Below are positions 2,819 to 19,289 of a DNA stretch of 22,082 nt, one piece after another. This stretch comes from a virus. A program made the position numbers and the translations under genes. The stretch covers positions 1 through 22,082 of IMG/VR virus record IMGVR_UViG_3300030390_000616; one strand, given 5' to 3'. Below the pieces are notes generated by a model. That model was not told the DNA's origin. It did not search any database and worked only from the letters and a program-made list of their open reading frames with translations. The stretch's first letter is position 1, and the number at the start of each line of letters is the position of its first letter.

Positions 2819-3143
2819 TCGCCACCCTTAAATATTCTAAGTCTATTCTCTTAATAGCCTCGATTTCCCAAGGCTCCGTAGATGTCTCTGTCACTTCTTT
2901 CCAAGCCTTTATCTGCTCGTAGCCTATAGCCAGTGGTCCATTCATCCCTGATCCTCTGCTAGAGCTTAAACTAACAAAGGCAGACCAGACATGAGATATA
3001 AGCACAGGGAAGGGTGTCGGGGGTTCCAATGCTTCTAACTTACGTCCAGTCTGCCTTTCTACTTGTTCAAGATGTTCTCGTTCTGTAGTTCCGTTCTGAT
3101 CTGGGAGGTTGAGCTTAAACTGATGTGCAGCCCACTCAACCAA
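2811..3143 (-). CDS. Tail assembly chaperone, downstream (GT-like) frame
   Basis: A 110-residue reading frame lying between the first chaperone and the tape measure. The C-terminal half has the pattern GSGMNGPLAIGYEQIKAW, then E-P-W-E-I-E-A-I-K-R-I-D-L-E-Y-L. This matches small proteins I recall in the same slot of many phages, the equivalent of the T extension of lambda gpGT. The first possible start is a TTG at 3143, nine bases past the stop of the upstream gene, with only a distant GAAGG. The frame is -1 relative to the upstream gene and stays open back to about 3176. The extra codons read naturally (FYEGLICKLVEWA), so the true product may be a frameshift fusion rather than a separate protein. 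The end overlaps the tape measure start by 8 nt. Confidence 0.75.
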   Translation of the reverse strand: MVEWAAHQFKLNLPDQNGTTEREHLEQVERQTGRKLEALEPPTPFPVLISHVWSAFVSLSSSRGSGMNGPLAIGYEQIKAWKEVTETSTEPWEIEAIKRIDLEYLRVANG

Positions 3144-3151
3144 CTTACAGA

Positions 3152-3550
3152 TCAGACCTTCATAAAATCCAGAGAGTCAGTCACGACCTCCTCAATCTGA
3201 TTGCGTATCCAAAAGACTTCTTCGTAAAGACTTCTAGCTTTGCCTACAGTTAGCTCTGGTTTCTCTCCGTCATAAGTAATATCCCAAGCTGTCGTAGCTT
3301 TAGCTAGAACCTCCAGCGTAGCTTCTTCGATGTCTGAGTAGTCTATGTCGTCAGACTTATTCTTCTGAGCCTTCTTGAGCCTCTTGCTAATTTGTTCATG
3401 CTGGAACTTCTTGTATTCTTTAGAGTGCGGAGCAAGAATAGTAATTGTCATAGCAGTGCCATCATCATTCTTCAGGACTTCTCCTGTCGAGGGGTGCTTT
3501 ATTTCTACAACAACATCATTTAAGTTCGGGGTTAAGTCTTTTAAGTCCAT
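3152..3550 (-). CDS. Tail assembly chaperone (G-like)
   Basis: A 132-residue, strongly charged protein between the tail tube and tape measure genes, where siphophages encode the chaperone that coats the tape measure and recruits tube subunits. The N-terminus is a beta-rich segment (V-E-I-K-H-P-S-T-G-E at about 16-25). The middle is a lysine-rich helix with HSKEYKKFQHEQ (42-53). The C-terminus has the typical 'A-R-S-L-Y-E-E-V-F-W-I-R-N-Q-I' helix (107-121) ending in DFMKV. The ATG at 3550 has AAGGAAC eight bases upstream. A hairpin between it and the tail tube gene may reduce read-through into this gene, consistent with the lower chaperone dose needed. Sequence and position agree, but family identity is from recall only. 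Confidence 0.82.
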   Translation of the reverse strand: MDLKDLTPNLNDVVVEIKHPSTGEVLKNDDGTAMTITILAPHSKEYKKFQHEQISKRLKKAQKNKSDDIDYSDIEEATLEVLAKATTAWDITYDGEKPELTVGKARSLYEEVFWIRNQIEEVVTDSLDFMKV

Positions 3551-3583
3551 GTCAGGTTCCTTTTCGGGGATTTATGTCGGGTG

Positions 3584-3623
3584 ATTAAAGTGTGGAGACC
3601 CCGACCCGACTCAGGGCCTCCAC
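3584..3623 (-). terminator. Hairpin after the tail tube gene, likely weak terminator or attenuator
   Basis: On the minus strand GTGGAGGCCC (3623-3614) pairs with GGGTCTCCAC (3601-3592), a 10-bp stem with one G-U pair and a 12-nt loop. ACTTTAAT follows, so the U-tract is short. It sits 19 nt after the tail tube stop codon. The loop and flanks also hold GTCGGG and CCCGAC copies that could form an alternative fold. The stem is clear; terminator strength is inferred. Confidence 0.6.
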
Positions 3624-3641
3624 GTACCTACGCAGGTATTC

Positions 3642-4559
3642 TTATGCTGGTCGTGTAATCTGTAAGTTAGTCAAGAGTGTAGAATCACGAAGAGCTACAA
3701 AGGACATAGTTACCATACGACTAGTTGGGCCATCGACACCAACATCAGCGCTATTGATCTTCACTCGTGGGAAGTCAAATGTGTAAGCGTTTGCACCTGT
3801 AGGATCGTCTACAGATACTTGAATTGCTGATTCTGTCTCGTTCAAGAAACGGTTAATCAGGGAAGCATCTTCAAAGTACACAGTCATAGTGCCTTCTACT
3901 TCTGCACGACCATACTCAAGTGAAGGTGCGCTGTCGGAGCCAATCACAAAGGTTGGAGCGAAGGAGTTAGTCAGTGTGAAGTCTAGACTAGTTACGATAG
4001 CCGAAGCTACTGCGTTTCCTACGTTACCAATGGAAATTGCCCCTGAGTAAGCATCAAAGGGTTGAGCGCCAGAGGCTGCTGTCTGTGTCTTTTCAGTGCC
4101 GCTGATGGTCATGTCTTTACCTACCATACCAAAGGTAGTTGTTACCATCTGGTTAGGGGCAAGAGTAATAGCCAGAGTGGAAACTGAGCAGCCTGTGAAC
4201 AAACGAGCTTGGTCGATGTCAGCAGCGAAGTCTTCGATAGACAGGAAGGTTGGAATTACACCAACTTTGAGCCTATAAGTAGCGCCATCAAAGACACTGA
4301 GCAGAGCTGACTCAAGTAGTGTGTCGTAGTCACCGTCACGCAGGTCAACTACAATATCACCAGCGACTTGACGATTACCCTGACGATTAACTCTTGGCAT
4401 ACGATCAGATTCTATATCTGTGCCAGCTAAGATGTCCTTAGTTAAGTTCATTGATTGAGTGCTGAAAGGTAGGTTAGTAAAGTTTCCTGCTGGTGTTACA
4501 CCAAAGGTAACTTCCTTTACGAATGATAGACTGGATCGTGATCCTTGTGCGAATGCCAT
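3642..4559 (-). CDS. Major tail tube protein
   Basis: A 305-residue protein that should polymerise into rings forming the tail tube. The N-terminus SRSSLSFVKEVTFGVTPAG (7-25), followed by D-I-E-S-D-R at about 48-53 and the 'D-G-D-Y-D-T-L-L-E-S-A-L' segment near 75-86, is the signature of the Phage_tube_2 type of tail tube protein. It is rich in Thr, Ser, Ala and beta-strand sequence. The C-terminal third (PTGANAYTFDFPRVKINSA) resembles the Ig-like half of such proteins. The ATG at 4559 has CGGAGA at good spacing. It lies between the tail terminator and the chaperones and is followed by a strong hairpin, as expected for a highly expressed structural gene. Confidence 0.9.
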   Translation of the reverse strand: MAFAQGSRSSLSFVKEVTFGVTPAGNFTNLPFSTQSMNLTKDILAGTDIESDRMPRVNRQGNRQVAGDIVVDLRDGDYDTLLESALLSVFDGATYRLKVGVIPTFLSIEDFAADIDQARLFTGCSVSTLAITLAPNQMVTTTFGMVGKDMTISGTEKTQTAASGAQPFDAYSGAISIGNVGNAVASAIVTSLDFTLTNSFAPTFVIGSDSAPSLEYGRAEVEGTMTVYFEDASLINRFLNETESAIQVSVDDPTGANAYTFDFPRVKINSADVGVDGPTSRMVTMSFVALRDSTLLTNLQITRPA

Positions 4560-4573
4560 ATTGTATTCTCCGA

Positions 4574-4999
4574 TTATGTGTTATAGATATACCAGCCTAT
4601 GTTGACTGGGACTGTGTACCAAGGGGTGTCAATACGGCCTTGCTGGCGTTCAGCGTAGCGTATACGAACGATGTATGTATCTGCATCTACCACAATAGAT
4701 ATGTCAGTAGTAGCTGCAAAGGCGTTAGTGATTGTGTTACAAGTAGTGTCAGATAGAGCAGGACCACTTCCTTCCGGTGCATGCACCATTACGTTAAACA
4801 AACCCTGATACAAGAGTTGAGGGTTTAAGCCACGAGTAGCAGGTTGTGTTACCGTGGGAATGAATGTCGGCTCAACAAATAGTGTGCCTGTGGTTGGGGT
4901 AAATACTACGTTCTCGTAAGCTACAGGGATTGCTCCAACGGTATTTGCGAGCTTGGTCTCTAAGGCAGCACGTATACTGTTGTAGATATTATTAGCCAT
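4574..4999 (-). CDS. Tail terminator / tail completion protein
   Basis: A 141-residue protein directly upstream of the tail tube gene, the usual position of the tail terminator that caps the tube and attaches it to the head. I place the start at the ATG at 4999, because GGAGAG lies 5-11 nt upstream; an in-frame extension to 5026 would bury that ribosome binding site and overlap the neighbour more. The protein opens with NNIYNSIRAALETKLANT (a helix) and continues with beta-rich sequence. NPQLLYQGLFNVMVHAPEG near 60-78 and the late RIRYAERQQGRIDTPWYTVP segment resemble DUF4128-like gpU-type terminators. The start overlaps the previous stop by 8 nt (ATGGCTAA), implying translational coupling. 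Family assignment is moderate. Confidence 0.78.
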   Translation of the reverse strand: MANNIYNSIRAALETKLANTVGAIPVAYENVVFTPTTGTLFVEPTFIPTVTQPATRGLNPQLLYQGLFNVMVHAPEGSGPALSDTTCNTITNAFAATTDISIVVDADTYIVRIRYAERQQGRIDTPWYTVPVNIGWYIYNT

Positions 5000-5405
5000 A
5001 TATGCTCTCCAATTTAGCAAAGACAAAGTAACCAGCAGTTCTCTGCCAACCTTCCCCGAACTCTACATCATATGCGTGAGGTGAGTTGTTCCTGAGTTGA
5101 ATGCTCTGTAGGTCTTCTAGTTCTGTGACTCTGGTCAAGTCTTGCATTAGGTTGTCGTAACCTTGTTGCCGTTCAGCCTGTACGTTTGCTCCTCTAGGAA
5201 GTTCCTCAGATGATTTACCTCTTGGACGACCAGACCCTACTGTATAGGAAAATGAGTTGACATAAGCCCCAGTGGAAACAGGTGAGTAGTCTACAGCAGT
5301 TCTAGCTATGTCTTCTAGTCTATCTTTAACTTCTCCTAGTGCAAGAGAGTCTAAGTGTTTTAGTTTATTGTAGAAGGAGGCGTTGACAGAAAAGGTAGTC
5401 TTCAT
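4992..5405 (-). CDS. HK97 gp10-like head-tail / tail completion protein
   Basis: A 137-residue protein starting at the ATG at 5405, chosen because GGAGG lies 5-9 nt upstream. An in-frame extension to 5492 would run through the upstream gene and gives unlikely sequence. Residues near 25-50 carry the gp10-family pattern: a helix, then ARTAVDYSPVSTGAYVNSF, where an amphipathic helix precedes 'P-x-x-T-G-x-x-x-x-S'. The later SPHAYDVEFGEGWQRTAGY fits the family's 'Y-A-x-x-x-E-F-G' segment. Such proteins act at the neck or tail completion step. It begins 1 nt after the stop of the head closure gene and overlaps the tail terminator by 8 nt, so the connector genes are translationally linked. Confidence 0.82.
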   Translation of the reverse strand: MKTTFSVNASFYNKLKHLDSLALGEVKDRLEDIARTAVDYSPVSTGAYVNSFSYTVGSGRPRGKSSEELPRGANVQAERQQGYDNLMQDLTRVTELEDLQSIQLRNNSPHAYDVEFGEGWQRTAGYFVFAKLESIYG

Positions 5406-5406
5406 T

Positions 5407-5757
5407 TTACTCCTCCACATCACACAGGTAGCACACTGCTGTACCACCAGAGTAAATTGTGACAACCCTGCTAATCTTTGCGCTGTCTCCATTACCTAAT
5501 ATTATATCATCAGGGGTTGGTTCAGGAATAAAGCCTAGCGAGGGAATAACGCACTTACGAGTTCCACGTATGACTTCACTAGGGTTAAGGATGTTGTAGT
5601 CGTAGTAGTAACCCGTGAAGGTAGTGTCAGTTGTAGCTGATCCAGTAACAGACCCTGTAGCTGGGTTGTATGTACCAGCAGTTGTAATTTGACGTAAGGT
5701 GAGAGTTTCACCAAAGTCTTGTACTAACTTAAGGAGATCATAGGAACGGAATGACAT
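5407..5757 (-). CDS. Head closure / head-tail adaptor protein
   Basis: A 116-residue, beta-rich protein between the connector and the gp10-like gene. It starts with a helix (YDLLKLVQDFGETLTLRQI) followed by TTAGTYNPATGSVTGSAT, which matches the start of small SPP1 gp16 / HK97-type head-tail joining proteins: 'G..vtlrr...gtYdp.tG.vt'. The rest has RGTRKCVIPS and DDIILGNGDSAKISRV, typical of the strand that binds the connector ring. The ATG at 5757 has AAGGGAG at about 8 nt. The gene stops 1 nt before the next start. Context and motif agree; the exact family is not certain. Confidence 0.78.
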   Translation of the reverse strand: MSFRSYDLLKLVQDFGETLTLRQITTAGTYNPATGSVTGSATTDTTFTGYYYDYNILNPSEVIRGTRKCVIPSLGFIPEPTPDDIILGNGDSAKISRVVTIYSGGTAVCYLCDVEE

Positions 5758-5768
5758 AGCTTACTCCC

Positions 5769-6224
5769 TTAAGAATAGTCAGGTGTTTTGTAGCTTGGAG
5801 GGTTCTTGAACTGATCCATACGGAAGGCTGGAGGTAAACGGTTAGTGTTAGCCCTCACAGCATTGACCCTAGCGATAGTAATTCCTCCAGCTAGTACACC
5901 AATGGCAGCACCAGAAGTCTTAGCCTCGTACTGCAACTGATCTCCTAAAGTGGTGTAGTGCGACATCAGGTCTGAGTATTCAGCCTTGAGAGCGCCAGAG
6001 AGTTCTGTGCTAACCCTTCTGGCGTACTGAGCAGCTATTGTACGAGCTATCCATGAGGCTGCGTAGTAAATTCCGTTATTATTCTGGGAGAGAGCGAAAC
6101 CAATCTCTTCGTTCTGGGCTTGTTGATCTAAGGCGTTAGTATCGCCTACTAGCAACCTTACTGAGTTGAGACGACCAGAAGCCGTAGTTGTGTCCAAGTT
6201 AGTTGGATCGTATGACCATGCCAT
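5769..6224 (-). CDS. Head-tail connector (adaptor) protein
   Basis: A 151-residue protein whose first 45 residues, SYDPTNLDTTTASGRLNSVR then LLVGDTNALDQQAQNEEIGF, match the N-terminal helix and loop of small phage adaptor proteins ('vRlliGDtd..d..l.DeEI.f.L'). Next comes an alanine-rich helix (YYAASWIARTIAAQYARRV). The adaptor forms the ring between portal and head closure protein. The C-terminal part, with an AIGVLAGGITIARV patch and a Pro/Lys-rich tail, is less conserved. The ATG at 6224 has AAGGGA at 8 nt spacing. It leads the row of small connector genes after the capsid block. Confidence 0.83.
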   Translation of the reverse strand: MAWSYDPTNLDTTTASGRLNSVRLLVGDTNALDQQAQNEEIGFALSQNNNGIYYAASWIARTIAAQYARRVSTELSGALKAEYSDLMSHYTTLGDQLQYEAKTSGAAIGVLAGGITIARVNAVRANTNRLPPAFRMDQFKNPPSYKTPDYS

Positions 6225-6756: not shown

Positions 6757-7761
6757 TTAGGCAATGATTGCGTTGAAGAAGTAACCCAATGATGGGCCGA
6801 CTAGCTTCATGTCATAGGACATCTTAACTTGGATATGCTCTGCAACCTGCTGACGCTTCAGCGCATCATCAGAGAATGACTCAACAGTAACACCAAGGTT
6901 GTTCGCGCCTTCGATGTTATTCCATGCAAAGGTCAAACCAGATGCTGGGGTCATAAGACCTGCACTTGATGGTGTGTAGCAAAGTAGTGCGTTCTTACCA
7001 CCAATAAAGGCAGATGCTTCTGTTGCACCGTCTGCTGCTGTGTTCTCTACAGCTTCCATGATGAGGAATTTCTCTACACCAAAGATTTCAGCCAACTTAG
7101 CGTCAACGATCAAAGCTGGGTTGTTGATGGTTGAACCACCGTTCAAACGAGCCAAGATGTCTGGGTGGTTGACTAAGATGTCGCGCACTGCCTTACCAAC
7201 AACCATTGTGTTGGGCTTGAAGCCACCAGATGTAAGCTGCATTGTCTGAGCAGCAAGAGTTACGTTAGCGATAGGAGTTGAGTTAGTGTAGTCACTCCAG
7301 AGGACAGGTTCGTTACCAGATGCAAAAGTTGCACCAGTTACGGATGTTCCCCAGACGCCATTTACGAAGAATGTAGAAGCGAACTGCTTCTCGCGGTGGA
7401 TTAACATACGGTTAACTAGCATCTGAGCGCCAGCAGAACGGATGTTCAGCATGTCATCTTCGTTAGCAAGTGTCTGCTCATCGAAGTCCATGCCGATGCC
7501 ATACACGTCAGCAAAGTAAGCGTCATTTGACAGCTTCTGGCCTACGCGGTTGACTTCTGTACGAGGCGCTAGTTTCTTAACGTCACCAGAGCGGTTAGCG
7601 TTTGCACGATCATACAGGTAGTATTTATCTGACTGCTTTGGAACACCAACGACAGGGAATACCTTATCGGCAACGAAAACAGTTTGCTCTTGTACATAGG
7701 CCAGTGTCAAGTTTGACAGTGGTGCGTCCAAATGTACCTGTGCGGGGGTCAATAGTGGCAT
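6757..7761 (-). CDS. Major capsid protein
   Basis: A 334-residue protein that should form the icosahedral shell, presumably with the HK97 fold. The N-terminus LSNLTLAYVQEQTVFVADKV then FPVVGVPKQSDKYYLYD (16-51) matches phage capsid proteins of this type: 'vs..y.q...fvAdkvfP.v.V.kqsgkY..yd'. The segment PRTEVNRVGQKLSNDAYFAD is followed by a helix with DFDEQTLANEDD (about 92-103). The C-terminus is beta-rich and ends with MKLVGPSLGYFFNAII. The ATG at 7761 has AAGGAAAT nearby. Position fits: decoration protein before it and connector genes after it. No N-terminal scaffold domain is fused; the separate scaffold-like gene lies two genes upstream. Confidence 0.93.
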   Translation of the reverse strand: MPLLTPAQVHLDAPLSNLTLAYVQEQTVFVADKVFPVVGVPKQSDKYYLYDRANANRSGDVKKLAPRTEVNRVGQKLSNDAYFADVYGIGMDFDEQTLANEDDMLNIRSAGAQMLVNRMLIHREKQFASTFFVNGVWGTSVTGATFASGNEPVLWSDYTNSTPIANVTLAAQTMQLTSGGFKPNTMVVGKAVRDILVNHPDILARLNGGSTINNPALIVDAKLAEIFGVEKFLIMEAVENTAADGATEASAFIGGKNALLCYTPSSAGLMTPASGLTFAWNNIEGANNLGVTVESFSDDALKRQQVAEHIQVKMSYDMKLVGPSLGYFFNAIIA

Positions 7762-8995: not shown

Positions 8996-9775
8996 TTATA
9001 GCTCCTCTTTTATAGCTCTTCCACCAATGGAAAACGCCGCTAGTTCACCCGACTTAACCATAGCCCAGACATCATCATCGAATACTTTGTAAGCAACGAT
9101 CCATCCTTCACGGTTAGACTGGATACCAAGAGAGTCACCGATTTCTTTAGTGACTGGAAGAGAGTGAACGACTACGCCTACTTGCTTCCCTGTGTGCATA
9201 GCCTTGCCAACTCGCACATGCTCCATAAATTCGTTAACGGCTTTGACTAGCGTGTCAGCCCCGATCATATCACCTTGGCGGTCTACTACAGGTTCACCAT
9301 CTTCAGTGATAACTGAGGCCCAGCCAAAGACCATACGTTGTTCTTCATCGACCTTAAGGATTTTACCTTCTATGCTCTTTGTCATGGTGTGTTCAAATCC
9401 GTTCTCTTGCAGGTCTAAGTGTTCTTGTAATGTATTTACCTTTATACTTTCTCCAGTCTCAGGGTTATACATCGTGTGAGGCTCGAAGTTCTCCTCAGTG
9501 TAAGCCTTTGTAAGACTAGTCACAGAGCTTGCACTCCACATACGACAAGACCAGTAGCCAGCAGTTGTCTTATCTTTCTTTGTGTCGCAGTTGTGCCTAG
9601 CTCTGAAGTTCGCTCTAGCTTTTGGGTTGTCTCTTCGGATGCTCATATTAGGGTCACCAAAAGCAACTCTCTTTACTCTGTCACCATCCTGTACAAACAC
9701 TTCAAACTTACTGCTTCCGCCTGTTGTACGTCTGGGCTTGTTAAGCGTTACTTGCTTACCTTGATACTCAGCCAT
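8996..9775 (-). CDS. Prohead protease, XkdF-type, with N-terminal DUF6321-like domain
   Basis: A 259-residue protein with two parts. Residues 5-80 contain QVTLNKPRRTTGGSSKFEVF, FGDPNMSIRRDNP and a Cys-rich patch (RARHNCDTKKDKTTAGYWSC). This resembles a small domain of unknown function (DUF6321-like, from memory) that is common in phage proteins. Residues 135-257 resemble the XkdF-type phage serine protease: VFGWASVITEDGEPVVDRQG (149-168), then conserved histidines at 194 and 204, and AFSIGG near the end with a candidate nucleophile Ser249. The role would be cleavage of scaffold and capsid during maturation. The ATG at 9775 has AGGAGGT, one of the strongest ribosome binding sites in the window. 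The gene abuts the scaffold gene. Catalytic residues are proposed from the family pattern. Confidence 0.83.
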   Translation of the reverse strand: MAEYQGKQVTLNKPRRTTGGSSKFEVFVQDGDRVKRVAFGDPNMSIRRDNPKARANFRARHNCDTKKDKTTAGYWSCRMWSASSVTSLTKAYTEENFEPHTMYNPETGESIKVNTLQEHLDLQENGFEHTMTKSIEGKILKVDEEQRMVFGWASVITEDGEPVVDRQGDMIGADTLVKAVNEFMEHVRVGKAMHTGKQVGVVVHSLPVTKEIGDSLGIQSNREGWIVAYKVFDDDVWAMVKSGELAAFSIGGRAIKEEL

Positions 9776-9786
9776 ATTACCTCCTG

Positions 9787-10110
9787 TTATCCTAATTCTT
9801 TGGTTATTACTAAGGGAAGTGAACCACTGTTAGGAAATGTCTCTATTGAACCGTTGCTGTATGTGACCTCAAACTGAACAGAGAACGTGCCAAAGGCATT
9901 CGTATCTGCTGCGACCCAATCGTACTGGACTACACCACCTGTAGCGTCAGTGATGTTCGTAGCGGCATCGACCTTTAGCACAGTGCCACCTAACGGCATT
10001 ACGTGTATCTTACAGGCTGCTCCAGTTAGATCAATTACTGCATTAGCTCCATCTCTAAGAGTTGCCTTTATAGAAGGTGACGTGTCATTCTGAGTGATGG
10101 TAAAAGCCAT
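9787..10110 (-). CDS. Small BppU-N-like beta-sandwich domain protein
   Basis: A 107-residue protein that looks like a single domain. The pattern FTITQNDTSPSIKATLRDG, NAVIDLTGAACKIHVMP, GGVVQYDWVAADTNAFGTFS then VQFEVTYSNGSIETFPN is that of the N-terminal domain of lactococcal-type baseplate upper proteins (BppU_N-like): 'kgDt.p.l...l.d..g.pvdLtga.v.f.m......v.y.w...dt...G.y...f.v.y.dG...tfP'. In other phages this domain anchors fibres or receptor-binding proteins. It starts at the ATG at 10110 with AAGGCGG upstream and follows the repeat protein by 1 nt, closing the appendage cassette. It may link the repeat fibre to the virion. Confidence 0.68.
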   Translation of the reverse strand: MAFTITQNDTSPSIKATLRDGANAVIDLTGAACKIHVMPLGGTVLKVDAATNITDATGGVVQYDWVAADTNAFGTFSVQFEVTYSNGSIETFPNSGSLPLVITKELG

Positions 10111-10111
10111 G

Positions 10112-12706
10112 TTAAGCCGCCTTATTGTTTTGATTTAGGACATTAGCTGTGTTAGATGAAACCCCTACGGAAGCCGTATTAGGATCGTCTACAATTACTG
10201 TGTTGCTTGATGCTCCCAGAACGCTAGAGTTAGGTTCTTCTACAGTCACAGTAGTTATTGTACTTTCTGTTACGAATACTGCTCGTCTCTGTGTTGGAAT
10301 TATAACTCTTGATGTGCCAACAACAGGGCTAGGAGTAACAATAGGTGTTGCAGAAAAACCAGAAACCTTTGATAATGTAGGGCTACCTATACTAGGGTTA
10401 GCTGTTACAATAAAGTCAGCTAGTATAATTACATTCTGGTCAAATGCTGGGGTGCCAACCCTAGGGTCACTCGTTACGACATCAGAGGCTTGCAGTAGAT
10501 TAACTTGATCTACGTTAGGGCTACCTACCAATGGAGATGGTACGATAATACTCGTTGCACTTAAGCCATTAAGTTGAACTAAGTTAGCTTCTTGAACTAC
10601 AGGGCTAGGAGTAGCTATAGGAGACGCTGTAAGGCCGCTCTGTTGACTAATAGCAGCCGTTGCTACTGAAGGTACACCTGAGACAATTGAGGACGCTGTG
10701 AGGGCTTGTTGTTGAGTTGCGGTTGGGTTGCCAAGGTTAGGGCTAGGGGTAATAATGTCATCAGCTAGTATCCCGTCACTCTCAGAGAAGGCGGCAGTGC
10801 CTACTAGGGCGCTTGGGGTTACGATACTGTCTGCTGTTAGAGTATTAGGTTGATCTACTGATGGTTGACCTAAGACTGGCTGAGGGGTAGCAACAAAAGA
10901 CGCTGTAAGATCGGCAACTGAGGCTATAACAACTGACCCTAAGACTGGGCTGGAGGTTATAATTGCGTCAGCTACGAGGCCGCTTAAGTGGACTAAGTTA
11001 GGTTCGCCTACAGTAGGTATGCCTGTAACTATGCTGTTCTTAGTTAGCTCATTGTTCTGACGTAAGATTGAGCTTGTGAATACAGAAGGTGCTGTAACAA
11101 TGCTGTCAGCAGACATTGGGCTAGCTTGATCTAGCTTTGAGCTACCAACTTGTGCCGGAGCTGTCGTAATGTTATCCGCTAGAAGGGCGTCATTCTCGAA
11201 CAGGCTAGGACTACCAAGAGTGGGGATACCCGTTTCAATGTCGCCTTTACCTAAATCAAAGATTTGAATAAGGTTAGGTTCACCTACAGCAGGAATACCT
11301 GTAGCTATGCTGTTCTTAGTTAGCCCATTGTTCTGACGTAAGGTAGGTTCTGCAACTAGGGGCTGACCTGTGACAATACTTACGACATTAAGCGCAATGT
11401 CTTGGGATATTGCTGGGCTGTTAGCAAAGGTTTGACCAGAAGTAATAATATCGGCTAGGAAACCATCGCCCTTAGCAAGTTCTGGGGTACCTACGATAGG
11501 AATGCCAGCTTCTATGCTATTCTTGCCTAAAGCATTAACTTGACCAAAGGCAGATGTGCCTACAATCGGGGCTGACGTAGTAATATTATTAGCTAGTAAA
11601 CCATCACCTTCGCTGAAAGGAGCGACACCAACTAATGCAGCAGAAGTAACAATTGCATCAGCAGTTAGTGCATTTTCTGTATCAAGCTTAGGGATTTCAA
11701 CAATGGCATTGCCAGTTAGGATGACATCAGCTTGAATTGCACTCTGAGAGGCTATAGCAGGCTCGCCTACAACAGGAACGCCTGTAACTATGGTTCCCTT
11801 GCCTAACTCATTGACTTGAGAAAGTACAGCAGCCGCTACTACAGCACTGGCAGTAGTAATTGCCTCAGCAGAAAGTATGCCTACCTGAGTAAACAGAGGC
11901 TCATCAGCGAAAGCCTTATCAGTAGTAATGCTGGCGGGTAATAGCTGACCAGAAGATGCTAGTGTAGGTTCACCAACAGTAGGACTTGCAGTCTCTATGT
12001 TGTTCTTAGTTAGCTCATTGTTCTGATCTAGCTTTGAGCTACCAACCAGAGGGCTTGGTGCAGTAATACTTGTTGCAAGTAGCTCTCCGTTAGTAACTAC
12101 TTCTGGAGTGCCTACGAGAGCAGAAGCAGTAACAATACTGTCTGCCAATATTCCATGAGCTTGTGTAGCTGTAGGCTGACCTAGCACAGGACTTGAGGTA
12201 ACTAGGTTTGTCGCTACAAAGTCATCTTTCTCAGCGAACTGAGGGCTTCCAGCAAGAGGGGAACCAGTCTGAATGTTGTCTGATGACAAGTCATTGCCTT
12301 GAGCAACAGATGTAGTTCCTACAGAAGCACTAGGAGTAACTATAGAGGATGCTGTTAGGTCTTGATCTTGGGCAGCACTAGGGCTACCTACAGAAGCACT
12401 AGGAGTAACTATAGAGGATGCTGTTAGGTCTTGATCTTGGGCAGCACTAGGGCTACCTGCAAAAGAGTTAGAAGTAACAATACTATCTGCTGATACGCTA
12501 TTGACTTGTTCAAAGGTAGGTTCTTTAACCTCACAATTGCCTGTAACAATAGCACTACCAGTTAAGTCAACCACAAATACAAGGCTAGGTTCACCTACAG
12601 CAGGGTTTGGCGTAGCAATGGGGTTAGCGGTAAGCATTACATCAGGGTCATCAAATAAACCCGTTCTGTCATCAAAGTTACCAGATAAACTATCAAATAA
12701 TGGCAT
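10112..12706 (-). CDS. Giant 23-residue-repeat structural protein (34 repeats)
   Basis: An 864-residue low-complexity protein with no recognisable enzyme domain. Residues 1-24 are a head segment (LFDSLSGNFDDRTGLFDDPD). Residues 25-806 are exactly 34 units of 23 residues with no insertion or deletion. The consensus is L-T-A-x-S-I-V-T-x-x-P-x-V-G-x-P-x-x-x-Q-x-x-x. Residues 807-864 form a tail with two 17-residue units (TVTVEEPNSSVLGASSN-like). There is no signal peptide or cysteine cluster. Similar repeats occur in uncharacterised phage and prophage proteins I recall. The repeat should form a long beta-strand or solenoid rod, so a fibre, spacer or adhesin is plausible. The ATG at 12706 has AGGAG 10 nt upstream. 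It follows a terminator-like hairpin, so expression may be partly uncoupled from the genes before it. Confidence 0.8.
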   Translation of the reverse strand: MPLFDSLSGNFDDRTGLFDDPDVMLTANPIATPNPAVGEPSLVFVVDLTGSAIVTGNCEVKEPTFEQVNSVSADSIVTSNSFAGSPSAAQDQDLTASSIVTPSASVGSPSAAQDQDLTASSIVTPSASVGTTSVAQGNDLSSDNIQTGSPLAGSPQFAEKDDFVATNLVTSSPVLGQPTATQAHGILADSIVTASALVGTPEVVTNGELLATSITAPSPLVGSSKLDQNNELTKNNIETASPTVGEPTLASSGQLLPASITTDKAFADEPLFTQVGILSAEAITTASAVVAAAVLSQVNELGKGTIVTGVPVVGEPAIASQSAIQADVILTGNAIVEIPKLDTENALTADAIVTSAALVGVAPFSEGDGLLANNITTSAPIVGTSAFGQVNALGKNSIEAGIPIVGTPELAKGDGFLADIITSGQTFANSPAISQDIALNVVSIVTGQPLVAEPTLRQNNGLTKNSIATGIPAVGEPNLIQIFDLGKGDIETGIPTLGSPSLFENDALLADNITTAPAQVGSSKLDQASPMSADSIVTAPSVFTSSILRQNNELTKNSIVTGIPTVGEPNLVHLSGLVADAIITSSPVLGSVVIASVADLTASFVATPQPVLGQPSVDQPNTLTADSIVTPSALVGTAAFSESDGILADDIITPSPNLGNPTATQQQALTASSIVSGVPSVATAAISQQSGLTASPIATPSPVVQEANLVQLNGLSATSIIVPSPLVGSPNVDQVNLLQASDVVTSDPRVGTPAFDQNVIILADFIVTANPSIGSPTLSKVSGFSATPIVTPSPVVGTSRVIIPTQRRAVFVTESTITTVTVEEPNSSVLGASSNTVIVDDPNTASVGVSSNTANVLNQNNKAA
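10289..12634 (-). repeat. 34 tandem 69-bp units, in frame, without indels
   Basis: The coding segment for residues 25-806 divides into 34 consecutive units of 69 bp, which equals 2346 bp exactly. Units diverge in sequence but keep length perfectly. Conserved positions are I6, T8, G14 and P16, with a hydrophobic residue at position 1. Units 4 and 5 are identical at most positions, and units 20 and 24 are close relatives 276 bp apart. Confidence 0.95.
12318..12455 (-). repeat. Perfect 69-bp tandem duplication
   Basis: Bases 12318-12386 and 12387-12455 are identical at all 69 positions, encoding two copies of SPSAAQDQDLTASSIVTPSA and the following three residues. Neighbouring units have diverged widely, so this copy was made recently by unequal crossing-over or slippage. 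Confidence 0.95.
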
Positions 12707-12735
12707 TATACATAGTCTCCTAGTCCCAAGGTAGT

Positions 12736-12783: not shown

Positions 12784-13158
12784 TTATACTGGGTCAGGGA
12801 TACCGACTGTAAATGAGCCAAGTGTAAAAGTGTTGCCGTTTGTTACGGCTTGGCCGTTTGTAAGAGTGTTAGCTGCAAGAAGTACACTTCCTGTAGTATT
12901 CAGTAGGGCGTAGTGCGAGGCTGTGCCTGTCCCCGTAACTGAACCATCTGTAATTGCAGCTATAGTCACCTCTCGACCGCCACCAGCACGATCCGATGGG
13001 GGGCCGATTGAAAGGCTAGTGCTGTCACCTAAAGCGTAGGTCACGTTAGCTTCGGCAAATGTAGTTGCCTGCTGAGAAGTAATTACGATCTTGTTTGCGT
13101 CATTATCAAGGGTATCAAGTCCCTGATCGAACACTGCGTTGTCTAGAAATGCAGCCAT
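12784..13158 (-). CDS. Small conserved phage structural-type protein
   Basis: A 124-residue protein starting FLDNAVFDQGLDTLDNDANK, followed by KIVITSQQATTFAEANVT, then GREVTIAAITDGSVTGTGTA, SHYALLNTTGSVLLAANTLT and a last strand FTLGSFTVGIPDP. I recognise this as a common small phage protein found among minor structural and fibre genes ('afLDn.l...ln.l...a.ki.lcs..PttyaeA......G...t.tG.ath.Alvd......l......vt.Gntft...f.igipdp'). Its function has not been established to my knowledge. The mostly beta pattern could suit a trimeric capping or linker domain. The ATG at 13158 has TAAGGAG at 8 nt. It is followed by a strong terminator. Confidence 0.75.
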   Translation of the reverse strand: MAAFLDNAVFDQGLDTLDNDANKIVITSQQATTFAEANVTYALGDSTSLSIGPPSDRAGGGREVTIAAITDGSVTGTGTASHYALLNTTGSVLLAANTLTNGQAVTNGNTFTLGSFTVGIPDPV

Positions 13159-14325: not shown

Positions 14326-15930
14326 TTATACGTCTGGGACTTGACTTACGTTTATGCCTACACCAGCAGAAGTCAAAGTGGCTGTTGTATCAAAAGTCTT
14401 ATAAGGGACAGCGCCATTACGAACTCGTATAGACAAGTCTACGTCAGTTCCTTGAGATGCTATAGAACCTACAAAGGGGCTTGTCGATGGAACCTCATTA
14501 AAGAGTACAGCAGTGTTTGTCGTGTCTGTCACGAGTATCCTAGAGCCTGCAACAATACCGTTCAGCGTTAGTATCCTGTTAGGGAAGTTTAAAACAACAG
14601 TTCCACCACCTGTATTAGTAAATCTAGGAGTTGTTGTTGTTCCTACTAGGTCTATCGTTACTGTACCAGTGGTATGCGTAGTTTCTATTTCAGCAGTACC
14701 ACTTTGATCGAAGAATACGTCAGTTAACTTATAAGTCCCAACAGTGTCAATCAAGATAGCGTGTTTGCCAGCATAAGACTCAAATCGCATATTTGCTATG
14801 TCCATTGGTCCTCCAGTAAAGTGTAATGCATTAGATGCAAAGGTGTTTGAGATTGTAGACCCGTTGATGGACACAAGGCTATTACTCAGCTTAATAGAAC
14901 CAGTGTTATCGAAGGTTGCTGAACCTGAGACAGAAGACCCTACAGTGAAGTCTCCCATACCCCTAAAGGTAGCGCCAGCTATATTAGTTAAAGAAGCGTC
15001 TGACTGATCGAAGTTAAAAGCTGCTCTTGTTCCCCACAGGTACGTGCCTGTCATAGTACAAGTATCAGCAGCAGAGTTACTGAGGTTTAAGTGAACCTGC
15101 ATAGCTTGATCTGTTAGCTGAAACCTTGGGTCTGCTGCGTTATTACTAGCTGGGCTAACGACAGTAACTCCGTTGTCGTTAAAGGTAGTAGCAGTAGCTG
15201 CATCACCAATCTGAAAGGGCATATCTATGTAGACTACGCTACCTGTCTGCCTTATCCAGTTCCCAATCTTGTTAGTGTAGTTTGTTCCCTGCACTAGCGT
15301 TACAGCCTGTACGAAGTTACTTGCGCCAGTAAAGACTGGTATGTCAGCGTCACCCTTACCCGTACCAAGTACGAAGTTAGAGCCTTGGAAGTTAATGTTA
15401 CCCTGAGTACCAACGACAAAATCAGAGTTAACTATAATTCCGTATCTAGTTACAGCAGTGTTATCAAAAGTACCTGCTGAGGAGGTTTCATTACCTGCAT
15501 TTAGGTCGATCACAAAAGGTACTTGACCTTTGATGCACTCTGCGAAGGGGCTATCATTACCGCCTATGTTCCAATCCTTGTAAGCAAGGGAAAACAATGT
15601 AGTTCCAGAGTAAAGCCTGAACCTAACACCACCATTAGCTAGGTCAGCTACTTGGATACGGTTAGGTGCGTTGAACTGATTGTGCCAAAGTAATACTTTA
15701 GTTGAACTAGAAACGTCATAGGAAGCTGGTGCAGTTTGGAAGTAGTAACTTACTCCAGCCAACTGATTGTCTGAGGTTATTGTGAACTGGCTACCATCTT
15801 GAGTAATAGGTAAGTTGCCAGCTTCTTTTGTGTTGACTGCGTTAGGACTACCAATGTTACCAGCGAAGAGAGGATCACCAGCCCCGTTAGTCTCATGCAA
15901 GTTGTTTACGGTAGGTAAGCTAAACGTCAT
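14326..15930 (-). CDS. Beta-rich fibre protein, long paralogue
   Basis: A 534-residue protein rich in Thr, Asn, Gly and short beta-strands, with no enzyme motif seen. It is paralogous over residues 1-365 to the gene just upstream. Both have TKLIVW-like/TKVLLW followed by NQFNAPNR (84-91), a later W-N-I-G/A-G-N-D (120-126), F-Q/E-I-G-D with TTFNDNGVTV (239-257), and DFTVGSSVSGSATFD (327-341). Residues 366-534 are unique to this copy and continue as beta-helix-like sequence (IANMRFESYAGKHAIL; TVTIDLVGTTTTPRF), ending in VNVSQVPDV-like sequence. The start ATG at 15930 overlaps the upstream stop by 4 nt (ATGA), so translation is coupled. I cannot name a family; a tail or head fibre is the likely role. 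Confidence 0.75.
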   Translation of the reverse strand: MTFSLPTVNNLHETNGAGDPLFAGNIGSPNAVNTKEAGNLPITQDGSQFTITSDNQLAGVSYYFQTAPASYDVSSSTKVLLWHNQFNAPNRIQVADLANGGVRFRLYSGTTLFSLAYKDWNIGGNDSPFAECIKGQVPFVIDLNAGNETSSAGTFDNTAVTRYGIIVNSDFVVGTQGNINFQGSNFVLGTGKGDADIPVFTGASNFVQAVTLVQGTNYTNKIGNWIRQTGSVVYIDMPFQIGDAATATTFNDNGVTVVSPASNNAADPRFQLTDQAMQVHLNLSNSAADTCTMTGTYLWGTRAAFNFDQSDASLTNIAGATFRGMGDFTVGSSVSGSATFDNTGSIKLSNSLVSINGSTISNTFASNALHFTGGPMDIANMRFESYAGKHAILIDTVGTYKLTDVFFDQSGTAEIETTHTTGTVTIDLVGTTTTPRFTNTGGGTVVLNFPNRILTLNGIVAGSRILVTDTTNTAVLFNEVPSTSPFVGSIASQGTDVDLSIRVRNGAVPYKTFDTTATLTSAGVGINVSQVPDV

Positions 15931-17060
15931 GCTGCTAACCTCATCAAGTGACTTGCATTAGGGTTCTTTAGGGTTGACCCAGACAGACTTGCATTGTTGT
16001 TGTACACGACACCACAGCTATCGAATGTAGCGTTACCCGATACAGATGATCCTACAGTAAAGTCACCAACATTGTTGAATGTAGCTCCACTAAAGGTAAC
16101 AACGGAATTGTTACTGATGTTAAAGTCCCAAGCTGGCGTAGAGTTACCGCAGTTGTACAATCCGCTAAAGGTTGCTGTGTCAGCAGCATTATCTCTTAGA
16201 TTAAGGTAAGCTCTGAAAGCTGCGCTAGTAACCCTAACTCTTGGATCAGCGTCAGTAATTGTCGTTGCGTTAGGCCAGAAGACTGTAACACCGTTGTCGT
16301 TGAACTGAGTAGAAGTTACGTTATCGCCTATCTCAAAAGGAGCAGCATAAGAGAAAACATCACCATCTCGCTTGATCCACTCATCAGTAATCTTAGTGTC
16401 AAACGTAGTTCCCATTGCAGTAATCATGTCACCCCAGTTAGACGTACTAGTAAAGCGAGGGATGTCAGTAGCACCCTTAACGGTACTAAAAGCGAAGATA
16501 CGCTGAGGAAAGAAGTTAGAGCTACCTGAGCCTGTGATACTAAGGTTATTAACACCAAGACCAAACGTCTGTAAGTCCGTGTTGTCGTATGTGCCTATAT
16601 CTTCATCGTATGTGAGATCATTAGGGTCTACGATAATCATCTTAGGGTTTTCACGCGCAGACGCACCAACCTTGTCGTTACCAGCTATATTCCAAGTACG
16701 ATAGCTAGTAGTGGGGCTACCTGTGCCTGACCCTAAGCGAAAGACTAGACCTCTGTTAGCTGCTGTGTCAGTCTGAACTCTGTTAGGGGCGTTGAACTGA
16801 TACGTCCATACGATCAACTTAGTGTTAGTTGAGGTATCAATCGCAGTAGGGAAACCGAAGTTAAAACCTCTTAGCTGACCATCACTAGATGAAGTCAGGT
16901 TAGTTGCAAATAAGGTCAGAGGCAAATTACCAGCAGTTTTAGCAAAGCCTCTCTGAGTGGTCTGACCTTCACCAACACCAGCGAAACCGCCTCTTGCGTT
17001 AGGGTGAGAGTTCACAGAGTCTGTCATTAGGTCAACAGCAGTTGGTATCACAAATGTCAT
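15927..17060 (-). CDS. Beta-rich fibre protein, short paralogue lacking the C-terminal domain
   Basis: A 377-residue protein with the same order of motifs as its neighbour: YQFNAPNRVQ (88-97), TWNIAGND (122-129), FEIGDNVTSTQFNDNGVTVF (242-261), DFTVGSSVSGNATFD (333-347) and LSGSTLKN near 359-366. It stops 11 residues later (PNASHLMRLAA), where the paralogue continues for another 168 residues. The N-terminal 45 residues differ most, apart from a shared AGNLP motif. It may be a natural short form, or a copy whose end was lost when the second gene was duplicated in. The ATG at 17060 has AGGAG at 7 nt, and it follows the collagen-like gene by 8 nt. Likely a fibre component. Confidence 0.75.
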   Translation of the reverse strand: MTFVIPTAVDLMTDSVNSHPNARGGFAGVGEGQTTQRGFAKTAGNLPLTLFATNLTSSSDGQLRGFNFGFPTAIDTSTNTKLIVWTYQFNAPNRVQTDTAANRGLVFRLGSGTGSPTTSYRTWNIAGNDKVGASARENPKMIIVDPNDLTYDEDIGTYDNTDLQTFGLGVNNLSITGSGSSNFFPQRIFAFSTVKGATDIPRFTSTSNWGDMITAMGTTFDTKITDEWIKRDGDVFSYAAPFEIGDNVTSTQFNDNGVTVFWPNATTITDADPRVRVTSAAFRAYLNLRDNAADTATFSGLYNCGNSTPAWDFNISNNSVVTFSGATFNNVGDFTVGSSVSGNATFDSCGVVYNNNASLSGSTLKNPNASHLMRLAA

Positions 17061-17068
17061 GCTGTCTC

Positions 17069-17875
17069 CTAAAGTGTTATTGTCTGTGCCTTTGTTGCTA
17101 CTAGACCATCCAGCGTAGTTCCATTAAAGGTCTGGAAGTATCTATCAGAGCCACCAGCAGCAATATATCTGAACAGGGTTAGAGTGTCATTGTTATATAA
17201 GTAGTTGTACACAAAGCCTCCGAGAAGCGGAGTGTTTAGCGTAGGGGTGCTAGAGAAGGATGTCGTGAGGGTAATCCAGTTGTTAAGAGTACCTCCAGCA
17301 GAAATAAACCCAGTGTTGAACTCCTTGCCCCAAGGGCCGAGTATGATGAGTTCACCAGCATCGCTAGTCTTAGTCCCCTTGATACCAAAGGTTCCTACAG
17401 GAGCGCCCGTGATAGTGTTGTTCAGGGTTGTACCTTCTTTTGTAATACTAACCTTACCAGCAATGTCTAGGTCACCATCATCATAAGTTATGACTAACAT
17501 ATTCTCGCTATTAACGGATATGTTTTTTACGCCCTTACCTTTTTCCCCAGTCTCACCTTTAAGACCTTGTTGACCCTGAAGTCCATCCTTACCGTCTACT
17601 CCGCTAGGACCAACTGTTCCGATCTTGCCTTGCTTCCCACGTCTACCGTCGAAACCATCTGCTCCGTCTAGGCCATCTTGTCCAGTAGCTCCTGTAAGGC
17701 CATCTACAGCGTCCTTACCGTCTTTTCCTGATACACCCTGCTTACCAACCTCTCCACGCTCTCCTGTGGCTCCTGTGAGGCCCTGTGAGCCATCCTTGCC
17801 ATCTACCCCATCAACTACCACAGGAATAGCTTTGTCGATCAGAACCTTAAATAGTGCTAAGTCAGTAGGCTTCAT
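17069..17875 (-). CDS. Collagen-like phage fibre protein
   Basis: A 268-residue protein. After a short helix (PTDLALFKVLIDKAIPVVV) comes a Gly-X-Y stretch from Gly23 to Gly113, about 31 triplets, with one Gly-to-Ala break at 56 (KDGKDAVDG). This would form a collagen-type triple helix and so make the protein a trimer. Residues 116-138 (VKNISVNSENMLVITYDDGD, then LDIAGKV) are the beta cap that usually follows collagen stretches in phage fibres. The C-terminal 130 residues form a beta-rich tip with no recognised enzyme motif (GPWGKEFNTGFISAGG; NNDTLTLFRYIAAGG). The ATG at 17875 has AAGGAAG at 6-12 nt and lies 1 nt from the portal stop. The helix at the N-terminus probably anchors to the virion. 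Confidence 0.88.
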   Translation of the reverse strand: MKPTDLALFKVLIDKAIPVVVDGVDGKDGSQGLTGATGERGEVGKQGVSGKDGKDAVDGLTGATGQDGLDGADGFDGRRGKQGKIGTVGPSGVDGKDGLQGQQGLKGETGEKGKGVKNISVNSENMLVITYDDGDLDIAGKVSITKEGTTLNNTITGAPVGTFGIKGTKTSDAGELIILGPWGKEFNTGFISAGGTLNNWITLTTSFSSTPTLNTPLLGGFVYNYLYNNDTLTLFRYIAAGGSDRYFQTFNGTTLDGLVATKAQTITL

Positions 17876-17876
17876 G

Positions 17877-19289
17877 TCAGCTTCCTTTTAGTACCTTTAA
17901 GGTTTCTTCGAGGATTTCTTCCTCTAGCTTCTGGGTGGATGTCGGTTCATCTACAACAACCTCTGGTTCTTCTGGTTCTGGAACTACTAAGTCTGCATCG
18001 TAGTCTAATTCAGCAATATCCATGAGGTCACTAATTACCTCTGGGTGTTGCGACACATCAATGCCAGCGCCGTTGAGGTTCCGTAGGAATGAGGATACTT
18101 CACGAAGATCATGCGGGGCGACATCACCAGCTTCGATAGTTGGCATGTACTTATAGTCTAGGCCGTTTAACTGCCACAGACGTTCTACTAGCTGCTTGTT
18201 AAGCACATCAACAATAGCTTGGATGTAACTCTCTAGGGCGCGTAGGAATAAGTCAGTCTTAGACTTAGACAGAGCGTAGGAACCTCCTGATGTACCAAGC
18301 AGTAGGAACTCAGAGAGTACACTACGAGCTATGTCGTGCTGGTATCTAGTTACCACTGGGTTGATGTCTATGTTGCGCTTACCTGACGCTGACATTAACT
18401 CTATGTCAACCAGACGGTGGTTCGTTGGTGAGCCATCTTTATCTGGGTACGTGTCTGATGGCAGGATAATGTAACCCTGCTCGTTGAACTTAACGTCACG
18501 AAGGATTTGCTGTAGGTTCCCAACGAACTGAGACTGACCAGCAGAGGCTTCACCTGACAGATACTCAGCAGGGATACGAGCAACTGGAATACCTGCTAGC
18601 TCTCTCTCAATGGCTATCGCTTCAATAGACTGTACGTTATTAAGGTAGGTGTAACTAGTGTAAGCATTACGTAGAATGGAACGACCACTTGCATCACCGT
18701 TGAGTGTAGTAGTTCTATAATATAGGGATTTATTAGTGGGTATATAATGTTTGCCATTTATAAATCCTACTGACTGCTCAATTCCTAGTACATCACCAGT
18801 TACAGGCTCAACATTAAACTTGTTGATAGTCCAAGGCGCTCTAGCAGCGATCTTGCGTACGCCTAAGCGTCCGTCTGTGTATTTACTGTGTTTCTTAGGG
18901 CTTCTCTCAGTTGGGCCTACACGCCGCTTGTATATGACCTCGAACCATGCAAAGCCGTACGACAAATAAGATAATGCTTCAGCTACGTGATCGTCGAGCG
19001 TCTCATCCATGTCATTCAGTACAGACTCAACAAAGAAGGCTTCATCCTTAGCTTGTTGGCTATCGTCTGCTGGCTTTACCTTCATCTCTACGTCACGAAG
19101 TATCTGCTCCACTGCGTACATCACAGCACCAATAGTGGCATCGTTGTCTCGCATCTGACGATACGTCTTGATAGCCCTCTGACCTTTAAGCTCTGGTAAG
19201 AACTCATCAGCCCTGATCTGGCCTGACTTGGTGTTATCGCCTGCGATACCCATTACTTGTTGGGCCTTAGCTTGAGAGAGCTTCTTCAT
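17877..19289 (-). CDS. Portal protein
   Basis: A 470-residue protein directly after the large terminase, as is usual for the portal, the dodecameric ring through which DNA enters and leaves the head. Sequence features: KTYRQMRDNDATIGAVMYAV (41-60), SYLSYGFAWFEVIYKRR (107-123), the wing/stem region GDASGRSILRNAYTSYTYLN (198-217), a helix with IAIERELAGIPVARIP (225-240), and LSEFLLLGTSGGSYALSKSK (325-344). These resemble the Mu gp29/DUF935-like and related portal families. The C-terminus is very acidic (EPEEPEVVVDE) and coiled, as in many portals. The ATG at 19289 has AAAGG about 9 nt upstream. Confidence 0.88.
   Translation of the reverse strand: MKKLSQAKAQQVMGIAGDNTKSGQIRADEFLPELKGQRAIKTYRQMRDNDATIGAVMYAVEQILRDVEMKVKPADDSQQAKDEAFFVESVLNDMDETLDDHVAEALSYLSYGFAWFEVIYKRRVGPTERSPKKHSKYTDGRLGVRKIAARAPWTINKFNVEPVTGDVLGIEQSVGFINGKHYIPTNKSLYYRTTTLNGDASGRSILRNAYTSYTYLNNVQSIEAIAIERELAGIPVARIPAEYLSGEASAGQSQFVGNLQQILRDVKFNEQGYIILPSDTYPDKDGSPTNHRLVDIELMSASGKRNIDINPVVTRYQHDIARSVLSEFLLLGTSGGSYALSKSKTDLFLRALESYIQAIVDVLNKQLVERLWQLNGLDYKYMPTIEAGDVAPHDLREVSSFLRNLNGAGIDVSQHPEVISDLMDIAELDYDADLVVPEPEEPEVVVDEPTSTQKLEEEILEETLKVLKGS

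Follow-up and report, generated by a model that had tools for sequence, protein, structure and literature searches.

A 23-residue repeat protein encoded between the portal and head protease genes of a marine CRP-6-type siphovirus: probable shaft of a virion-surface fibre

Among the head genes of a siphovirus represented in IMG/VR is one whose 864-residue product, hereafter the stalk protein, is composed over most of its length of tandem units of 23 residues, and the question raised by this locus is what such a protein contributes to the virion. The analysis covers bases 1 to 22082 of the 28,621-bp record IMGVR_UViG_3300030390_000616 (referred to as the window, i.e., the whole 22,082-nucleotide stretch). 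As judged from sequence comparisons, the protein is proposed to form the shaft of a virion-surface fibre, located at the neck or head of a marine CRP-6-type siphovirus, a reading to which we assign a probability of roughly 0.6 and of which we are least sure where it places the fibre at the neck as opposed to the tail tip.

RESULTS AND DISCUSSION

The stalk gene resides within a structural gene block

The window encodes a siphovirus structural block specifying terminase, portal, protease, capsid, head closure, neck, tail-terminator, tail and tape-measure proteins. The stalk gene is located between the portal and head protease genes, directly following the gene for a 124-aa protein and directly preceding that for a 107-aa BppU_N-like protein. 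The features on which the argument relies are as follows.

284 to 2818, minus strand: tape-measure protein, 844 aa, separate from the stalk (phrog_1538)
6757 to 7761, minus strand: major capsid protein (phrog_1005, E 3.9e-69), used to gather relatives
8996 to 9775, minus strand: head maturation protease (PF14550, E 1.2e-17)
9787 to 10110, minus strand: 107-aa BppU_N-like protein (PF10651, E 1.3e-4, just below the cut-off)
10112 to 12706, minus strand: stalk protein gene, 864 aa, whose homologues share the same slot
12717 to 12721, minus strand: AGGAG, Shine-Dalgarno-like, upstream of the stalk gene (read from the sequence)
12784 to 13158, minus strand: 124-aa partner, whisker/fiber-I-like, distantly similar to Sf14 gp31 and Pfam Gp80
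17877 to 19289, minus strand: portal protein (phrog_113)

The same block harbors two neighbouring fibre-like paralogues (positions 15927 to 17060 and 14326 to 15930; 40% identity over 382 aa), neither of which has a family match, and a collagen-like fibre protein (PF01391; positions 17069 to 17875) encoded between the portal and these fibre genes. The remaining part of the record carries what we take, from its sequence, to be a probable thymidylate synthase gene, thyX (L163:3638-4255).

The stalk gene has the appearance of a genuine gene on account of its Shine-Dalgarno-like AGGAG, its coding-like GC content by codon position (57/50/29%) and a dN/dS of 0.48, compared to 0.17 for the capsid gene, when the window is set against its near relative L002. 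Searches of the stalk protein against Pfam, PHROG and NCBIfam returned zero family matches, and a literature search for a 23-residue phage repeat returned nothing relevant. Matches of stalk relatives to Lipase_3 and Apolipoprotein were dropped as chance-like fits within the repeats.

Thirty-four indel-free units with an invariant hydrophobic pattern

The stalk protein is laid out as 24 aa, 34 units of 23 aa and 58 aa, without an indel, its parts being the following.

12635 to 12706, minus strand: N-terminal 24 aa, with the motifs LFDSLSG, NFDDRTG and LFDDPDV (read from the translation)
10289 to 12634, minus strand: 34 tandem units of 23 aa (69 bp) each, residues 25 to 806, consensus about LTADSIVTGSPVVGTPALDQVNG
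12290 to 12496, minus strand: units 3 to 5, the latest duplicates, neighbours having 80 to 81% DNA identity; the equivalent stretch is amplified in L002
10115 to 10288, minus strand: C-terminal 58 aa, Asn/Val-rich, with a 17-residue repeat

The original prediction, made from the window alone, had divided residues 25 to 806 into 34 units of 23 residues, and this division is borne out by two approaches. Self-identity of the protein is 0.31 at lag 23, 0.32 at lag 69 and 0.32 at lag 92, compared to a best value of 0.13 in 500 shuffles across lags 1 to 119, while a break-tolerant dynamic-programming parse returned 34 adjoining units with every step equal to 23. The coordinates which had been given for the array, 10289 to 12634, delimit exactly these residues, to which the strand (minus) is now added. 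The units are, as had been noted, widely diverged, with a mean pairwise identity of 32%, and only the adjacent pairs 3/4 and 4/5 have the look of recent copies.

Despite this divergence, positions 1, 6, 13 and 18 are hydrophobic in all 34 units, and none of the residues D, E, K, R, N, Q and H occurs at positions 1, 6, 8, 11, 13, 16 or 18. Such a pattern reads as the mark of a folded repeat and not of a linker. The protein is otherwise rich in Ser, Ala, Val and Thr and devoid of Trp and Tyr. With regard to its termini, the N-terminal 24 residues comprise three hydrophobic 7-residue motifs, for which a role as a multidentate anchor is possible by analogy with the RcGTA head fibre discussed below. 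At the opposite end, the C-terminus of the L005 stalk is 41 aa long, i.e., exactly 17 residues (one period of the C-terminal repeat) less than that of the window protein.

The 23-residue grid is kept among relatives with different ends

Relatives were gathered through a capsid-protein scan of IMG/VR and a second scan, yielding dozens of marine loci with a stalk gene in the corresponding slot; the Roseobacter isolate phage CRP-6 encodes a further example, gp57 (QBQ72781, a hypothetical protein), in the same head-gene slot and on the same 23-residue grid. The grid is kept in all CRP-6-type stalk relatives, with unit numbers from 2 to 40. A-type stalks (those of the window, L002, L005, L010, L048/L049 and CRP-6) have a short N-terminus, 10 to 40 units (34, 40, 21, 19, 18 and 10) and a short Asn-rich C-terminus. 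B-type stalks have 2 to 8 units and a fused globular C-terminal domain, which in most cases is phrog_8198; their unit number was calculated as 2 + (stalk length - 78)/23, the shortest stalk (L153) being taken as two units. Measured from the Met to a conserved M[FL]GGW motif, B-type stalk length equals 78+23k in 59 of 68 proteins, and the other nine all deviate by +5, reflecting an additional N-terminal-type module in the cases inspected. Ends and stalks recombine, as shown by hybrid proteins encoded by L122, L128, L135 and L133, in which a B-type end is preceded by an N-terminus of A-type or window-like kind; in L133, VFDSQVG/LFDNKLG/LFNDGG precedes a different stalk and head.

For alignment across loci, non-overlapping six-unit segments were used, because overlapping ones lost their register when aligned freely with MAFFT. 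The resulting 20-row alignment, which covers ten loci besides the window, is gapless. The expectation that no unit had gained or lost a residue stands for the window protein but not across its relatives, among which one 21-residue unit was found (in the L018/L090-L092 group) and stalks with 22-residue repeats occur in Octadecabacter DB virus 2 and Microcystis phage Mae-JY22, each with a member of the 124-aa family encoded nearby. The repeats of the latter two phages have in common a Q-x-H signature ahead of the first hydrophobic residue of the next unit. The period thus appears to be lineage-specific, at 22 or 23 residues, and constant within one protein. Both of these stalks carry their extra domain at the N-terminus, from which it follows that stalk polarity is not fixed. 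Together with CRP-6 gp57, they substantiate the initial statement that similar repeats exist in uncharacterized phage proteins. A scan of genome contigs produced a single weak match (31%), in a Ruminococcus bin.

Several observations concern these and other repeat proteins in their own right. The DB virus 2 stalk (gp11, L086:7065-8591), in which the extra domain precedes the 22-residue repeats, is annotated as 'ribonuclease E', an assignment that looks wrong, and its C-terminus holds about five copies of a 10-residue Trp motif. The Mae-JY22 protein (L172:3-1421) comprises a lamin-G-like N-terminal region, recognized by eye, 22-residue repeats and four RAL-type repeats, and its annotated start at 744 may omit the N-terminal part of the open reading frame. 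Another fibre in a relative has a 17-residue period of the TTGxxNxAVGxxAL type (L020:16380-19184), and in L049 the 124-aa gene and the stalk gene are separated by an inserted gene for a 1186-aa fibre with long imperfect repeats (SSTFDGRDVS.DG.KLDGIE; positions 2572 to 6132). The 1843-aa protein of Alishewanella phage Slicko01 (L171:4570-10101) contains a 20-residue repeat in its C-terminal half, which may account for the poorly predicted 'beta-helical' spacers of the related LSH1 gp34 (PMC13243795).

Stalk length changes in whole units

Loci L048 and L049 are more than 99.6% identical in DNA sequence, yet specify 19 and 18 units, respectively. Similarly, the flanks of L002 and the window are about 98 to 99% identical, while their stalks comprise 40 and 34 units, a difference of six; in L002 the stretch around units 4 and 5 is amplified (L002 units 4 to 11), and a four-unit block equivalent to window units 20 to 23 has been transposed to a site between units 9 and 10 in perfect register. 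These differences fit a stalk whose length is evolvable in whole-unit steps by recombination between 69-bp units.

Strong structural selection on the period had been proposed at the outset. Retention of the 23-residue grid by all CRP-6-type relatives agrees with this proposal, and orthologous stalk units evolve under purifying selection; part of the constancy may, however, be due to recombination, since whole-unit exchange between 69-bp units itself preserves the register. It had further been suggested that the protein might act as a ruler or spacer. A strictly periodic, one-dimensional repeat would suit a molecular ruler, with the length of tail or neck, or another dimension of the virion, dictated by how many units are present, but unit numbers that span 2 to 40 and change between near-identical genomes disfavor this function, and the tape measure is encoded by another gene (284 to 2818). 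We therefore regard a ruler as very improbable and consider the data better explained by a spacer or stalk whose length can evolve.

A beta-structured repeat is plausible

AlphaFold2 modelling of a B-type protein monomer produced a featureless stalk (pLDDT about 28) with a beta-sandwich-like end domain. For six units modelled as a monomer from the 20-row alignment, the best of five models was a coil of short strands with an exact 23-residue period and a pLDDT of 60, the other four having values of 28 to 42; the solenoid anticipated by the original prediction was thus obtained in one model. AlphaFold2 is reported to invent solenoids for repeat sequences (PMC11795689), for which reason the six-unit model is considered suggestive only. 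A fold search with this model against PDB and viral folds returned nothing significant, as did a PDB sequence search with the whole stalk protein and the repeat profile, and the B-type model yielded TM scores mostly below 0.3 and one small partial match (TMt 0.43). The hydrophobic pattern and the six-unit model render a beta-structured repeat plausible.

If each of the 34 units forms one solenoid turn with a rise of about 4.8 Å, the array would measure about 16 nm, whereas as an extended trimeric shaft it would be several times longer.

The poor monomer models, the Ser/Ala/Val/Thr-rich composition lacking Trp and Tyr, and the clear occurrence of whole-unit recombination would also suit a mostly disordered, low-complexity linker whose constant period merely results from unit duplication. 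Such a linker would not be expected to retain four hydrophobic positions in every unit at 32% identity, nor to be subject to purifying selection on orthologous units (dN/dS 0.48), and the grid is kept across unrelated stalks whose units no longer resemble recent copies. A disordered linker is, on balance, considered improbable, and a folded shaft is preferred.

Partner proteins point to the neck or head

The 124-aa partner was found to resemble proteins of neck whiskers and of podophage fibre I. Of 16 members of its family, 10 give weak matches to PF23140 ('Podophage GP4 fiber I protein gp80'); the best of these (E 6e-4, 20.5 bits) falls short of the curated cut-off of 27 bits, and the partner is not assigned to this Pfam family. 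The family profile also matches chain K of PDB entry 9C39 (E 0.013), which corresponds to Sf14 gp31 by its 110-aa length and its sequence, and hhalign returned 77% for gp31 against 0.5% for gp30, included as a control. The similarity to whiskers lies mainly in the last 45 residues of the partner and was absent from a single-sequence search; a search of the family for a jellyroll match, as in an RcGTA-type base, found none.

In B-type loci the interval in question consists of the portal gene, a 123-aa gene, the stalk gene and the protease gene, with no other gene, and the 123-aa gene was present in all 72 loci with sufficient upstream sequence, these loci being partly redundant (about 40 distinct stalks). 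In CRP-6 and the A-type relatives, further genes are inserted between portal and protease. All 11 A-type loci, which represent about five lineages and in some cases share a contig, have a BppU_N-like gene directly downstream of the stalk gene, as opposed to none of 77 B-type loci. Because this gene accompanies A-type stalks and is absent where the end domain is fused, its distribution suggests that the BppU_N-like protein provides A-type stalks in trans with their missing end domain. The B-type end domain, phrog_8198, also occurs as a standalone protein in unrelated phages, in every case inspected within a head, packaging or neck gene block, and the homologue in S-SCSM1 carries the label 'virion protein', the virions of that phage having been studied by mass spectrometry (PMC9602691).

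The whisker-like partner, the occurrence of phrog_8198 in head and neck modules, and the portal-protease slot together form the basis for placing the fibre at the neck or head. The stalk could alternatively be the shaft of an ordinary tail or side fibre at the tail tip which happens to be encoded among head genes, given that collagen-like and tailspike-like genes share the interval in the window and in CRP-6, and that tail-fibre genes can lie apart from tail genes. The B-type interval, however, holds only the stalk and 123-aa genes, phrog_8198 and the whisker-like partner point to the head or neck, and CRP-6 possesses a separate putative tail fibre gene downstream of its tape-measure gene; a tail-tip location is thus thought unlikely, though it deserves consideration.

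The position of the gene between those for portal and capsid might also be expected of an ejected, internal or scaffolding head protein. Proteins with ejection or scaffolding roles, however, tend to be helical and do not have a modular build in which end domains are swapped, and the partner of the stalk is whisker-like. There is consequently very little to recommend an internal location over the surface fibre proposed here.

Two peculiarities of CRP-6 (L007/MK613348) deserve mention. This phage has been described as short-tailed (PMC6918029), yet encodes a tape-measure protein and a structural block syntenic to that of the siphovirus window. Its gp58 (L007:6174-7943), encoded near the collagen-like 'tail fiber' gene gp60, appears to comprise glycosyltransferase domains fused to a 2OG-Fe(II) oxygenase (phrog_61, E 2e-71) and is possibly a collagen-modifying enzyme for phage fibres.

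Proposed model of stalk assembly and function

A tandem shaft of fixed period and, among relatives, exchangeable end domains are both found in the stalk, as in repeat-shaft fibres. In the proposed model, each 23-residue unit would add a fixed rise to a beta-structured rod, such that the number of units sets its length (the element in which we have most confidence), and this length would be tuned by recombination between the 69-bp repeats. Second in confidence, the rod is believed to carry an anchor at one terminus and a functional tip at the opposite one, the latter being the fused phrog_8198 domain in B-type stalks and probably the separate BppU_N-like protein, encoded by the next gene, in A-type stalks. 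Third, a neck-located whisker-like protein, the 124-aa partner, is presumed to serve as this anchor, and the three N-terminal hydrophobic motifs of the stalk may take hold of it in a manner comparable to that of the RcGTA head fibre on its base. The fourth and least confident element is that the fibre would serve to provide reach, establishing a first, reversible contact with the host surface.

More tentatively, and at somewhat less than even odds in our estimation, the repeat may represent a new family of fibre-shaft folds of 22 to 23 residues which is inserted by many aquatic phages between exchangeable anchors and adhesins, which is neck-mounted via whisker/fiber-I-type proteins, and the reach of which evolves by recombination of 69-bp units, with the register nearly always kept. 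None of the protein-family libraries searched has a name for the stalk family, although CRP-6-type phages are reported to be ubiquitous in the ocean (PMC6918029). Its natural series, from 2 to 40 units and including pairs that differ by one unit, is well suited to asking how fibre length affects adsorption, and the link drawn here ties a repeat without known family to neck whiskers, structures on whose function opinion is divided.

Comparison with known systems

The closest counterpart considered, CRP-6 gp57, shares with the window stalk its slot, the 23-residue grid, an Asn-rich C-terminus and the adjoining BppU_N-like gene; it differs in the number of grid positions, about 16 as against 34, and in its N-terminal motif, and the 124-aa partner of CRP-6 adjoins the portal gene, several genes from the stalk gene, unlike in the window. 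Leptospira leucine-rich repeat proteins have the same 23-residue period, but the profile match to PDB 4U09 (E 0.35) is at chance level and was dropped, as the stalk lacks the LxxLxLxxN motif and a Pfam LRR match.

In Shigella phage Sf14, gp30 and gp31 form neck whiskers in the cryo-EM structure (PDB 9C39; PMC11821841), and the genes are arranged as portal, gp30, gp31, protease, decoration, capsid. Likeness to the window consists of a small gene in the portal-protease slot and the distant similarity of gp31 to the 124-aa partner; the Sf14 slot differs in being without a repeat stalk gene. The partner likewise resembles, below the Pfam cut-off, fiber I (gp80, PF23140) of Ralstonia podophage GP4. 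One such GP4 protein, which has a match in phage LSH1, is described as a dimeric fibril that runs from the tail-nozzle collar to an adhesin (PMC13243795).

The head spikes of RcGTA, an alphaproteobacterial particle, are encoded by adjacent base and fibre genes (Rcc01079 and Rcc01080), reminiscent of the stalk and its partner, and the fibre is lodged in a ring that the base subunits form by the repeated (iso)leucines of its short hydrophobic N-terminus (PMC7296036). The N-terminal motifs of the window stalk are reminiscent of this arrangement, as are further short, repeated hydrophobic N-termini among its relatives. The RcGTA fibre is 325 aa long, and its likeness to the stalk is one of analogy rather than homology. 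The neck fibres of Anabaena phage A-1(L) are, like the proposed stalk, long and repetitive, but their bead chains are formed by many copies of a separate protein, gp81 (PMC10966104), while the stalk units are all contained in one chain. Set beside these systems, the stalk-repeat family is unnamed, new as a family and ordinary in kind, its member in the window being unusually long and regular.
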